The notes beneath the pieces were generated by a model. It was not told where the DNA came from. It worked only from the letters and a program-made list of their open reading frames with translations, and searched no databases. This document shows positions 10,444 through 22,714 of a stretch of DNA of 34,301 nt, one piece after another. A program made the position numbers and the translations under genes. Numbering within the stretch: the first letter of the stretch is position 1; the number at the start of each line of letters is the position of its first letter. This DNA is from Candidatus Giovannonibacteria bacterium RIFCSPLOWO2_02_FULL_45_28 (GTDB lineage: Bacteria > Patescibacteriota > Minisyncoccia > UBA11713 > 2-01-FULL-45-33): contig MFIM01000012.1 of assembly GCA_001780725.1 (NCBI GenBank), forward strand, positions 1-34,301, given 5' to 3'.

Positions 10444-10472
10444 ACATGTTAGACGCCGAGCTTCTAACATGT
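10444..10472. repeat. REP-like hairpin, left of RAYT gene
   Basis: Perfect 10-bp arms ACATGTTAGA/TCTAACATGT around CGCCGAGCT. The 25-nt core is identical to the copy at 11119-11143. TAGCAT right after it (10473-10478) serves as a -10 box 7 nt before the transposase ATG. Confidence 0.85.
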
Positions 10473-10485
10473 TAGCATAACACCA

Positions 10486-11148
10486 ATGAGAACAACGCCA
10501 ATTGCGCCCGGAGAATATTACCACATCTTTAATCGAAGTAATGATAAACAACCAATCTTTTACGAAACAAAAGACTGGGTGCGCTTCTTGTTCCTTATTT
10601 TACATATGCAATCTCCAGAAATATTTTATAACATCGGCCGCAATATCTCCAAATTTGTTAGAAGCCGAGCTTTTAACATAAATGGCGAAATAATGTCTGA
10701 AATAATCAAAAACCGTACCGTAGAATTAGTTTCTTACGCTTTAATGCCTAATCATTTCCACCTGACAGTTAAAGAAGTTAAAGAAAATGGTATTTCACAG
10801 TACATGCAGCGTGTTTTGACAGCTTACCCAAAATACTTCAACACAAAATACAATAAATCAGGTCATTTATTTCAAGGGCCGTATAAAATCGTACACACGG
10901 AAGATAACAAGCAACTTTTATATCTCTCTGCGTACATTCATAAAAACCCTCGAGAACTAAAGGAGTGGAGACAAAAGGAACATAATTATCCTTGGTCCAG
11001 CTACCAAGATTATGTTGGCGAAAACAGATGGGGGAATTTATTATCGCAAGACATTATTTTGGATCAGTTTGAAAACAAATCCGAATATTACAACTTTGTA
11101 AAAACAAATACCGCAAAAATGTTAGACGCCGAGCTTCTAACATTTTAA
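10486..11148 (+). CDS. REP-associated tyrosine transposase (RAYT, Y1/IS200 superfamily)
   Basis: A 220-residue Y1 transposase. It has the start APGEYYHIFNRSNDKQPIF, the HUH motif MPNHFHL (H90, H92), the catalytic tyrosine helix YMQRVLTAYPKYFNTKY, and SGHLFQGPYK followed by YIHKNPRELK and YPWSSYQDY. Such proteins nick single-stranded DNA at REP hairpins. The gene is bracketed by two identical 25-bp hairpin cores, and a third variant lies inside the coding sequence (10656-10678). The right copy encodes the C-terminus and holds the stop codon. It has a -10 seven nt upstream of the ATG and no ribosome site. It appears intact. Confidence 0.92.
   Translation: MRTTPIAPGEYYHIFNRSNDKQPIFYETKDWVRFLFLILHMQSPEIFYNIGRNISKFVRSRAFNINGEIMSEIIKNRTVELVSYALMPNHFHLTVKEVKENGISQYMQRVLTAYPKYFNTKYNKSGHLFQGPYKIVHTEDNKQLLYLSAYIHKNPRELKEWRQKEHNYPWSSYQDYVGENRWGNLLSQDIILDQFENKSEYYNFVKTNTAKMLDAELLTF
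10656..10678. repeat. REP-like hairpin inside the RAYT gene
   Basis: TGTTAGAAGC/GCTTTTAACA arms with loop CGA (one G-T mismatch), a variant of the flanking repeats, in frame within the transposase. Confidence 0.7.
11116..11146. repeat. REP-like hairpin at the end of the RAYT gene
   Basis: Perfect 11-bp arms AAAATGTTAGA/TCTAACATTTT with the same core loop as the left copy; it encodes MLDAELLTF and overlaps the stop. Confidence 0.85.
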
Positions 11149-16117: not shown

Positions 16118-16153
16118 AAACATTCCGACATTCTTGAGAATGTTGGAATGTTT
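16118..16153. repeat. Palindrome copy 3 (ACATTCCGACATTCT family)
   Basis: 17-nt arms with one G-T mismatch around TG; inverted relative to the copies at 2565 and 2884. It sits between a terminator (16165-16181) and the 15716-16021 gene, so it could be another binding site for the ArsR-like protein, or just a dispersed repeat. Confidence 0.8.
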
Positions 16154-20018: not shown

Positions 20019-20024
20019 TTGGCT

Positions 20025-21092
20025 ATGAAAGAGTCAAGGATTATTGTGATTGTCGGGCCGAACGCGAGCGGGAAATCAGAATTGGGAGTGAAATTGGCCA
20101 AGAAATTAAACGGCGAGATTATCTCCGCCGATTCGCGGCAAGTGTATAAAAAATTGGATGTTGGAAGTGGGAAAGTTAGAGGTAGATGGAAAAAAGGAGT
20201 TTTCATTTATAAAAACGTCACCCATCGTTGCATAGACATTGCCGATCCGAAAAAAGTTTTTACCGCGCTGGATTTTAGAAAATGCGCAGAGAAAGCTATT
20301 GCGGATCTTTTAAGCCGCGGGAAAACGCCAATTATAGTAGGCGGCGCTGGTTTTTATATTGACGCAGCGCTTGGACGCATAAAATTAGGCGGAGTTCCGC
20401 CGGACCCAGTGCTCCGCAAAAAACTTGCCGACTATTCAACCACTCAACTACTCAACTATTTAACTGAATTAGATCCCGCGCGCGCCAAATCAATAGAACA
20501 AAAAAATCCGCGGCGGCTGATTCGGGCAATTGAAATAGCGTCAGCAAAGCATGACTCTTCTCCAAAAAAGCGCTGCGGTGTTGATTTTGCTAGCAGAGGA
20601 GAAACTAATGACCCTCTGAACGGGTTTTTCGCCCTTTTTGGCACGGTCCCCAAGCGTAGCGAGGGGCAAAAAGGTGCGAAACCCTCGGAGCCCCGCGCTG
20701 GCGGAGCGAGAATGAGTGAAGAGGGTGCATTAGTTTCTCCTAAAAACATTCTCTGGTTAGGCATCAAACGCATGCCGGAAGAGCTTAAAAAACGCATTCG
20801 TACGCGTTTAATCAAACGCCTTCTCGGAATTATTCGCGAAGTAAAGAAGCTCCGCCGAAGCGGAGTTTCTTGGAAAAGGCTCTATGATTTTGGGCTGGAA
20901 TACAGATACATATCGCTATATCTGCGCGGCAGGTTGGACTATAAACTAATGGCTACTCAACTACAAACTGCCACATGGCACTATGCAAAACGCCAGATGA
21001 CATACTTCAAAAAAAACAAGGAGATCCGCTGGATTTCCGCAAACAAAGAAGCACTCCGAAGAGTGCCAATATCAATCAAGGACGGGAAATAA
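20025..21092 (+). CDS. miaA: tRNA dimethylallyltransferase with in-frame repeat insertion
   Basis: Adds the isopentenyl group to A37 of tRNAs reading UNN codons. Walker A IVGPNASGKSELG (residues 8-20), DSRQVYKKLDVGSGKV (about 37-52), IIVGGAGFYIDAAL, and the C-terminal KRQMTYFKKNKEIRWI are typical. The protein is 355 aa against about 300-310 normally. The extra 45-50 residues (NDPLNGFFALFGTVPKRSEG to about SEEGALVSPKN) are encoded by a 145-nt palindromic element between the RAIEIA and LWLGIKR regions. A short tandem repeat encodes STTQLLNYL. The start is the ATG at 20025; a TTG two codons earlier overlaps the promoter. No ribosome site is present. Confidence 0.95.
   Translation: MKESRIIVIVGPNASGKSELGVKLAKKLNGEIISADSRQVYKKLDVGSGKVRGRWKKGVFIYKNVTHRCIDIADPKKVFTALDFRKCAEKAIADLLSRGKTPIIVGGAGFYIDAALGRIKLGGVPPDPVLRKKLADYSTTQLLNYLTELDPARAKSIEQKNPRRLIRAIEIASAKHDSSPKKRCGVDFASRGETNDPLNGFFALFGTVPKRSEGQKGAKPSEPRAGGARMSEEGALVSPKNILWLGIKRMPEELKKRIRTRLIKRLLGIIREVKKLRRSGVSWKRLYDFGLEYRYISLYLRGRLDYKLMATQLQTATWHYAKRQMTYFKKNKEIRWISANKEALRRVPISIKDGK
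20597..20741. repeat. 145-nt palindromic element inserted in miaA
   Basis: Outer arms AGGAGAAACTAATG/CATTAGTTTCTCCT extend into ACCCTC/GAGGGT with one bulged base. Inside, GGGTTT/AAACCC and CTTTTTG/CAAAAAG form a second level of pairing. The reading frame stays open across it. Confidence 0.85.
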
Positions 21093-21109: not shown

Positions 21110-22714
21110 TTATACTCCTCCTATTATTTTTGTCAATACCTCCCTAATCATCTCCGGATTTGCGGTGCCTTTAGTTTCTTTCATCACTTGACCGACCAGA
21201 AATTGGAGAGATTGCTGTTTCCCCTTTTTAAAATCCTCAACCGCTTTTGGATTTTGAGAAATTGTTTTTTTAGCGATTTCCGAAAGAGCTGATTCGTCCC
21301 CTACTTGTTTTAGCCCCTTGGATTCTATGATTGTAGACGGGTCGCCGCCATGCTCAACCATTATTCGCAAAACATCTTTGGCGACGCGCGAATTAATTTC
21401 TTTTTTATAAATCATTTTAATCAGTTCTGCGAAATTTTCCGGATCAACCAAAAGTTCGTTCGGCGGAATTTCTTTTTCTTTCATTAATCCCAAAAGATCG
21501 GAGGTAAAATAATTAGCAGCCAATTTGTAGCTTTCCTCCTCAACACTACCCGGCTCCTCGAAACCTGGTTTTGAGACTGCCAAAAAACCAGGTTTCTTCC
21601 CGCCGGGCAGTGTTTTCCCGGAAAGCCATTCCCGCAATTCAGAAATAACTTTTTCCCAAAAAGCTGAAAGCGAGCGTTCACGAACCAAAGTCTCAACTAA
21701 ACCGGCCGAAATTCCGTATTCCTCCGTAAATCTTTTTCTCTTCCCTGCGGGCAACTCCGGAATAGTCGCGCGCAATTCCTCAATATAATCATCCGAAAAC
21801 TCCATCGGCGGCAAATCCGGTTCAGGAAAATAACGGTAATCATGCGCTGATTCCTTGGAGCGCTGGGAAAAAGTTGCTTCTTTATTTTCATCCCATCCGC
21901 GCGTTTCCTGTACGACCTTTTTACCCGATTCTAAAACCTCAATTTGCCGTTTTGCTTCGTATTCAATCGCTTTTTCAACCGAGCGAAAAGAATTAAGATT
22001 TTTTACCTCAACCTTTGTACCCAAGGTCGCAGAATTACGCTGATCTGACGCAGAATTACGCAGAACAGAATCAGTTCCGCGACCTTCTGCGCCCATTCCG
22101 CGTTGTTCGGCGGTTTCAGTTTTTTTAACTGAAACATTGGCCTCGCACCTCATTTCCCCTTTTTCCATGTTTGCTTCGGAAACGCCAAGATACTGAAAAA
22201 CCAACTGCAGTTCCTCGGCAAATTCACGCGCTTGCCTTGCTGAAGTCATATCCGGTTCAGTAACTAATTCCATTAACGGAATCCCGGCTCTGTTGAAATC
22301 CACAAGACTTGATGTTTCGTGTTTCGTGCTTCGTGCTTCGTGAATTAATCTGGCAGTATCTTCCTCCAAATGCACCCTTGTAATCCTTACGCCTTTTAAA
22401 TTGCCGCCAAACACCAATGGGTGTTTATATTGCGAAATTTGATAGCCCTTCGGAAGATCCGGATAAAAATAATTTTTGCGGTCAAAACGCGAAAATTTCT
22501 TAACCTCGCCACCCAAAGCCAACCCGACCCGCTGGACATGCCGCACCGCCTCTTCGTTTATCACAGGAAGCGTCCCCGGGTGCCCCATGCACACGGGACA
22601 AATGTTTATGTTTGGGTGTTTCTCATCCGGATCGTTCTTGGAAGCGCAAAACATCTTCGTTTTTGTGCGAAGCTCCGCGTGTATTTCCAGACCGATTGTC
22701 GCTTGATATTCCAC
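21110..22714 (-). CDS. gatB: Aspartyl/glutamyl-tRNA amidotransferase subunit B
   Basis: The GatB kinase-like subunit of GatCAB, which makes Gln-tRNA or Asn-tRNA by transamidation. Seen are TIGLEIHAELRTKTKMFC, NINICPVCMGHPGTLPVIN, FDRKNYFYPDLPKGYQISQY, LVDFNRAGIPLMELVTEPD, RCEANVSVK and the C-terminal Yqey-like helical domain ending NPEMIREVLTKIIGG. It is 534 aa against about 475-490. Three in-frame repeat tracts explain the excess: a tandem TTCGTG tract (22315-22342), doubled CGCAGAATTACGC (22028-22061) and a 73-nt palindromic element (21542-21614). gatA and gatC are not in the window. The start is a GTG with TATATT 7 nt upstream. Confidence 0.96.
   Translation of the reverse strand: MEYQATIGLEIHAELRTKTKMFCASKNDPDEKHPNINICPVCMGHPGTLPVINEEAVRHVQRVGLALGGEVKKFSRFDRKNYFYPDLPKGYQISQYKHPLVFGGNLKGVRITRVHLEEDTARLIHEARSTKHETSSLVDFNRAGIPLMELVTEPDMTSARQAREFAEELQLVFQYLGVSEANMEKGEMRCEANVSVKKTETAEQRGMGAEGRGTDSVLRNSASDQRNSATLGTKVEVKNLNSFRSVEKAIEYEAKRQIEVLESGKKVVQETRGWDENKEATFSQRSKESAHDYRYFPEPDLPPMEFSDDYIEELRATIPELPAGKRKRFTEEYGISAGLVETLVRERSLSAFWEKVISELREWLSGKTLPGGKKPGFLAVSKPGFEEPGSVEEESYKLAANYFTSDLLGLMKEKEIPPNELLVDPENFAELIKMIYKKEINSRVAKDVLRIMVEHGGDPSTIIESKGLKQVGDESALSEIAKKTISQNPKAVEDFKKGKQQSLQFLVGQVMKETKGTANPEMIREVLTKIIGGV
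21542..21614. repeat. 73-nt palindromic element in gatB
   Basis: Outer arms AACACTACCCGGC/GCCGGGCAGTGTT (one mismatch) and inner perfect arms AAACCTGGTTTT/AAAACCAGGTTT. It encodes roughly TLPGGKKPGFLAVSKPGFEE, which is out of place in GatB. Confidence 0.8.
22028..22061. repeat. Direct repeat in gatB
   Basis: CGCAGAATTACGC at 22028-22040 and 22049-22061, 21 nt apart, so the frame is kept; encodes the RNSASDQRNSAT stretch. Confidence 0.75.
22315..22342. repeat. Tandem TTCGTG(C/T) repeat in gatB
   Basis: About four copies of a 7-nt unit, encoding HEARSTKHETSS in place of a short loop. Confidence 0.7.

Follow-up and report, generated by a model that had tools for sequence, protein, structure and literature searches.

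The palindrome at 20597-20741 of the window (the whole 34,301-nucleotide stretch of DNA analyzed here, from genome G000) is one copy of a dispersed structured family found in many Patescibacteria, mainly in one class. We conclude that this is probably a non-autonomous mobile palindromic family of ~130-190 bp that has spread through the Patescibacteria, chiefly through that class. The window copy lies in frame within miaA, and copies of the same core occur in other genes, in intergenic DNA and in other genomes.

The palindrome within miaA

The features of the miaA copy are as follows.

20019-21092, + strand: miaA, encoding tRNA dimethylallyltransferase, the gene in which the element lies (TIGR00174, 187.7 bits, cut-off 148.65; PF01715, E=9e-48)
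20570-20590, + strand: probably the leftover arm of an earlier palindrome that occupied this miaA site (G001 has it intact, G005 and G006 in short form)
20597-20741, + strand: palindromic element, in frame (fold z -6.1; core at 20612-20725, 114 bits to covariance model R1, this copy being itself one of the 15 model-building sequences)
20597-20617, + strand: outer stem P1, 5' arm, with a 14-bp perfect distal part at 20597-20610 (arm complementarity, fold)
20622-20684, + strand: P2, a long bulged hairpin (fold, consensus structure, covariation)
20640-20647, + strand: conserved unpaired motif GGCACGGT, family form GGCAYGGT (alignment of copies)
20685-20690, + strand: conserved TCGGAG joining P2 and P3 (alignment of copies)
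20689-20708, + strand: P3 hairpin with a conserved CGCTGG loop region (alignment, consensus structure, covariation)
20707-20719, + strand: conserved CGAGAATGAGTGA 3' of P3 (alignment of copies)
20720-20741, + strand: outer stem P1, 3' arm (arm complementarity, fold)

The presence of a palindrome inside the miaA ORF, as described in an earlier note on this DNA, was confirmed. Its outermost arms, at 20597-20610 and at 20728-20741, show 100% complementarity along their 14 nt, and the predicted RNA fold of the element reaches -75.4 kcal/mol, with 0 of 200 shuffled sequences folding as well. Folding of the other strand as DNA gave a z of -6.7. Its shape goes beyond the two nested levels described in the note: the element forms a three-way junction, built from the outer stem, a bulged hairpin and a small hairpin.

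The miaA reading frame crosses 20597-20741 with zero stops. The 145 nt are not in themselves a multiple of three, so it is the complete insertion, edges included, that preserves the frame. In an alignment to MiaA 2QGN, a solved structure, query residues 176-234 stand against template residues 171-182 (59 residues against 12), which gives ~47 extra residues where ~48 had been claimed. The extra segment follows a conserved stretch that closes with RRLIRAIEI and precedes the next conserved block; it is absent from the MiaA proteins of G010 and G012, which belong to other families of the class. The proposal that the added peptide forms a surface loop is supported only by this position between conserved blocks, the AlphaFold prediction (mean pLDDT 40) being too poor for use. 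The miaA copy would be tolerated because it sits in a permissive loop, in frame and stop-free, and MiaA would be made with the ~47 extra residues.

Spread, conserved core and copies inside genes

BLASTN of the window's own genome returned no second copy. The covariance model R1 gave a weak second copy at G000:C24:11620-11746, which lies within a DUF2079 membrane-protein gene, in frame but on the strand opposite to it. Second copies were found in related genomes, both by DNA similarity (11 of the 55 genomes searched) and by R1. The model, built from 15 aligned copies, matched 7/10 family genomes, 53/285 class genomes (with up to 13 copies per genome) and, phylum-wide, 9/380 genomes, five of them outside the class. 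A scan of 84,980 species genomes for a subfamily motif returned 40 stretches, from Giovannonibacteria, Terrybacteria, Spechtbacteria, Jorgensenbacteria, Niyogibacteria, Harrisonbacteria and other Parcubacteria or MAG records, with no match in Rickettsia. Viral contigs held no match to the element motif, and the open-access literature searched did not describe elements of this kind from Patescibacteria. One copy from the motif scan (L151) is on a contig labelled Omnitrophota, through either horizontal transfer or misassignment of the contig.

The core common to these copies comprises the P1 stem, P2 with the unpaired GGCAYGGT on its 5' side and P3 with CGCTGG, while other lengths vary; more distant subfamilies mostly keep GCAYGG and CGCTGG. 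Double changes occur in 25 of the 34 pairs in the consensus fold of the 15 copies. In the named three-helix structure, both sides have changed in 25 of 29 pairs and 90.6 percent of cells pair. The covariation score is 0.55, against 0.23 when shuffled and at most 0.16 when slid, and 0/500 shuffles reach 0.55. Across 91 copies there are 825 double-change cells. At L087:1530-1590, L126:319-460, L279 and L284, the element's P2 or P3 loops harbor further palindromic repeats.

Among 102 copies inspected, 12 are in frame, at nine gene loci, each spanned by a long ORF with substantial coding sequence on both sides; the other copies are mostly intergenic. The in-frame copies are distributed as follows.

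miaA: G000, G001, G003 and G007
uvrC: G007, and G153 at another position
glycosyltransferase gene: G153
Elp3-like gene: G091
two PMT-type genes: G001
O-antigen ligase-like gene: G136
DUF2079 gene: G000, the window's own genome

The weakest of them, G001:C12 (26.8 bits to R1), is a tentative member. Pfam domains flank the element on either side in the uvrC product, the glycosyltransferase and the Elp3-like protein, and inside genes the element is found both along and against the coding strand. Of the 38 full-motif copies, which are not independent of one another, 29-30 are open in each of the three reverse-strand frames taken singly, compared with 5-9/38 after shuffling. The open frames that span the intragenic copies suggest that the element is translated as part of its host proteins.

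Arms, orientation and proposed mode of movement

Copies with 100% identical cores were found in G244 (three copies), G265 (two) and G028 (two), and the identical cores at three places in G244 show recent amplification or conversion. The outer flanks of the identical-core copies in G244 and G265 differ between copies and are complementary within each. Across 88 copies, the 20 bp flanking the core agree with the opposite flank of the same copy at 14.3/20 positions, versus 8.6/20 for the flank of another copy. Some arms are nevertheless common to the miaA and uvrC copies; since these arms travel with the core, the arms are best seen as part of the element, but a part that is quickly rewritten.

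In the genus of G244, four orthologous intergenic loci (A-D) are occupied by the element in several species, and its orientation at them varies; at locus D it is absent in other species. No target-site duplication was evident by eye around near-identical copies, and no exact empty site was seen among the loci compared. Comparison of G102 with 787 kb of G036 likewise gave no clean empty site; the best locus has an arm-like palindrome too. General concerted evolution of cores within genomes was considered and rejected, mean identity being 61-69 percent within genomes versus 67 percent between genomes. The similarity of these values is more in keeping with recent bursts and re-insertion than with general homogenization.

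Mismatches in the stems are G-T in 80 cases versus A-C in 25, an excess that is partly favored by the covariance-model alignment. This G-T excess favors one strand as the folded one. Taken with the tolerance of both orientations within genes, this strand preference appears to point to single-stranded DNA as the folded form more than to a role in the transcript of the host. In the mechanism that we propose, an enzyme acting in trans would recognize the core in its folded single-stranded form and mobilize it. Fold-back copying (template switching) at insertion or replication would rewrite the outer arms again and again, or create them. Such copying would explain how the arms can differ between copies with identical cores yet stay complementary. 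A more specific version is offered tentatively, as one that we hold less likely than not: insertion or fold-back replication may make an inverted copy of the flank, giving each copy its own, mutually complementary arms and leaving a core that can be replaced or flipped in place. If true, flank-inverting insertion would be a mode of transposition without the usual direct target duplication.

A variant of the mobile-element reading, which we regard as unlikely, is that the core inserts into pre-existing palindromes, so that insertion would not create the outer arms, which would be hairpins of the host. Copy-specific arms around identical cores would follow from it, and the miaA and uvrC loops of relatives do hold other palindromes. 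The arms, however, would need to be long, almost loopless palindromes, and those common to the miaA and uvrC copies can evidently travel with the core. At locus D, moreover, a terminator is the only hairpin at the site in relatives lacking the element, though these relatives are distant (the neighboring gene is only ~74-80% identical).

It is also quite unlikely, in our estimation, that the element is a structured RNA (a regulatory RNA, terminator or processing site) kept for its fold in the host transcript. Strong covariation, conserved unpaired motifs and the excess of G-T over A-C speak for this reading, and several copies are directly 3' of genes or terminators. Against this, intragenic copies take both orientations relative to the gene, orientation differs between orthologous sites, and copy number is patchy among relatives. 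The share of G-U among pairs, at 5.4 percent, is below the 8.5 percent found in tRNAs folded alike, and the curated Rfam covariance models gave only chance-level matches in or near the element.

The hairpins with strand-specific signals resemble REP/REPIN-type elements, which are moved by RAYT (TnpA_REP, a Y1 transposase), and Y1 genes are present in the window and, in several copies, in relatives. This origin is improbable on the distribution of the enzyme: Y1_Tnp occurs in 33/53 carriers and 154/232 non-carriers of the element among the 285 class genomes (p=0.63), and thus has no association with it. Eight strong carriers have no PF01797 match at E<=1e-3, and G244, with its three identical-core copies, has no Y1_Tnp at E<=0.1. 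The Y1 gene in the window is flanked by different hairpins, of the form ATGTTAGACGCCGAGCTTCTAACAT. Reverse transcriptase was found in 7 of the 16 element-carrying genomes examined; several high-copy genomes, among them G244, G102 and G161, lack it. Neither Y1_Tnp association nor the reverse-transcriptase search thus identified a transposase for the family.

The Y1 gene of the window is an IS200-like transposase gene of RAYT size (10486-11148, + strand), and with its ATGTTAGACGCCGAGCTTCTAACAT hairpins at 10446-10469 and 11116-11146 it forms a REP-RAYT-like arrangement. The window also contains three copies of a short palindrome, ACATTCCGACATTCT-nn-AGAATGTCGGAATGT, at 2565-2604, 2884-2921 and 16118-16153, which make up a REP-like family.

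Finally, a self-splicing intron or translational bypass element, whose insert would never appear in the protein, would account for a compact structured insert in conserved genes but is highly improbable, as the intragenic copies keep the frame and are stop-free, which neither splicing nor bypass needs (the spanning-frame search was biased towards in-frame cases), and 24 same-strand pairs of flanking ORFs, judged by their ends, gave no sign of a split gene.

Known elements and turnover at insertion sites

Protein-coding palindromes are rare, and have been described in Rickettsia and Wolbachia. Rickettsia palindromic elements (RPEs) measure 105-146 bp, form long stem-loops with terminal inverted repeats, and are found in intergenic DNA as well as fused in frame in 19 protein genes; whether they duplicate their target is unknown (Ogata et al., 2000; PMC2229807, PMC10969869). 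The Patescibacteria element, with its 145 bp and 14-bp perfect arms, is alike in palindrome size and terminal inverted repeats, and its family is also both intergenic and in frame in protein genes (12 copies, nine loci). The resemblance to RPE insertion into a protein gene, to which the earlier note had pointed, is well supported by the in-frame copies, by their occurrence in other genes and genomes and by the conserved structure. Neither of the two findings that the note had named as refuting it, conservation of the segment in distant MiaA proteins or lack of a second copy in related genomes, was obtained. Membership among the RPEs is not claimed, because the family belongs to another phylum and is likened to RPEs from descriptions rather than by sequence comparison. 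It further differs in its conserved three-way-junction core, in its copy-specific complementary arms and in its differing orientation at orthologous sites. By analogy, then, the family behaves like a Rickettsia palindromic element, which does not establish it as one.

Bacterial MITEs such as Correia, ERIC and RUP are short, dispersed, non-autonomous and stem-loop forming (PMC2229807). All four properties are shared by the Patescibacteria family, in which, however, no target-site duplication or parent transposon was identified in the copies compared, and the outer arms are not conserved. REP/REPIN sequences mobilized with RAYT are dispersed palindromic DNA with a strand-specific fold (PMC6006769, PMC8266576). 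The Patescibacteria family fits this description as well, but is larger and branched, has few copies per genome and lacks the Y1 association. Integron attC sites are imperfect palindromes with unpaired signals that are read on one strand. The Patescibacteria element is likewise an imperfect palindrome with unpaired signals on one strand; unlike attC sites, it is found inside genes and in both orientations, with a conserved core, variable outer arms and, as far as inspected, no cassette arrays.

A structured family in housekeeping proteins of Patescibacteria, whose genomes are very small, would mean that selfish DNA is able to lengthen conserved proteins, and to do so repeatedly, in an unrelated phylum. 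The identical cores of G244 and the orientation-variable orthologous sites of its genus offer a natural system for testing how such elements move.

At the miaA site, the element is more conserved than the gene around it. Across genera, its identity is 91% between G000 and G003 and 90% between G000 and G007, versus 67-71% for the miaA flanks, and G003 and G007 share 97% identity in the element versus 78-79% in the flanks. At the corresponding position, G001 carries a diverged relative of the element, and G005 and G006 have a shortened palindrome with covarying arms. The miaA gene of G002 (L026) holds a different palindrome, in frame, which is the reverse complement of a second palindrome in G003 and G007 (L003). 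The UvrC loop after the CC motif (uvrC loci L176-L185) contains a different palindrome or insert in most family genomes. These different palindromes in the miaA and uvrC loops of relatives indicate that the loops are repeatedly used insertion sites. Within the window, another in-frame palindrome, with no evident likeness to the miaA element, is present inside gatB at 21530-21626; its 43-nt arms are 74% complementary.
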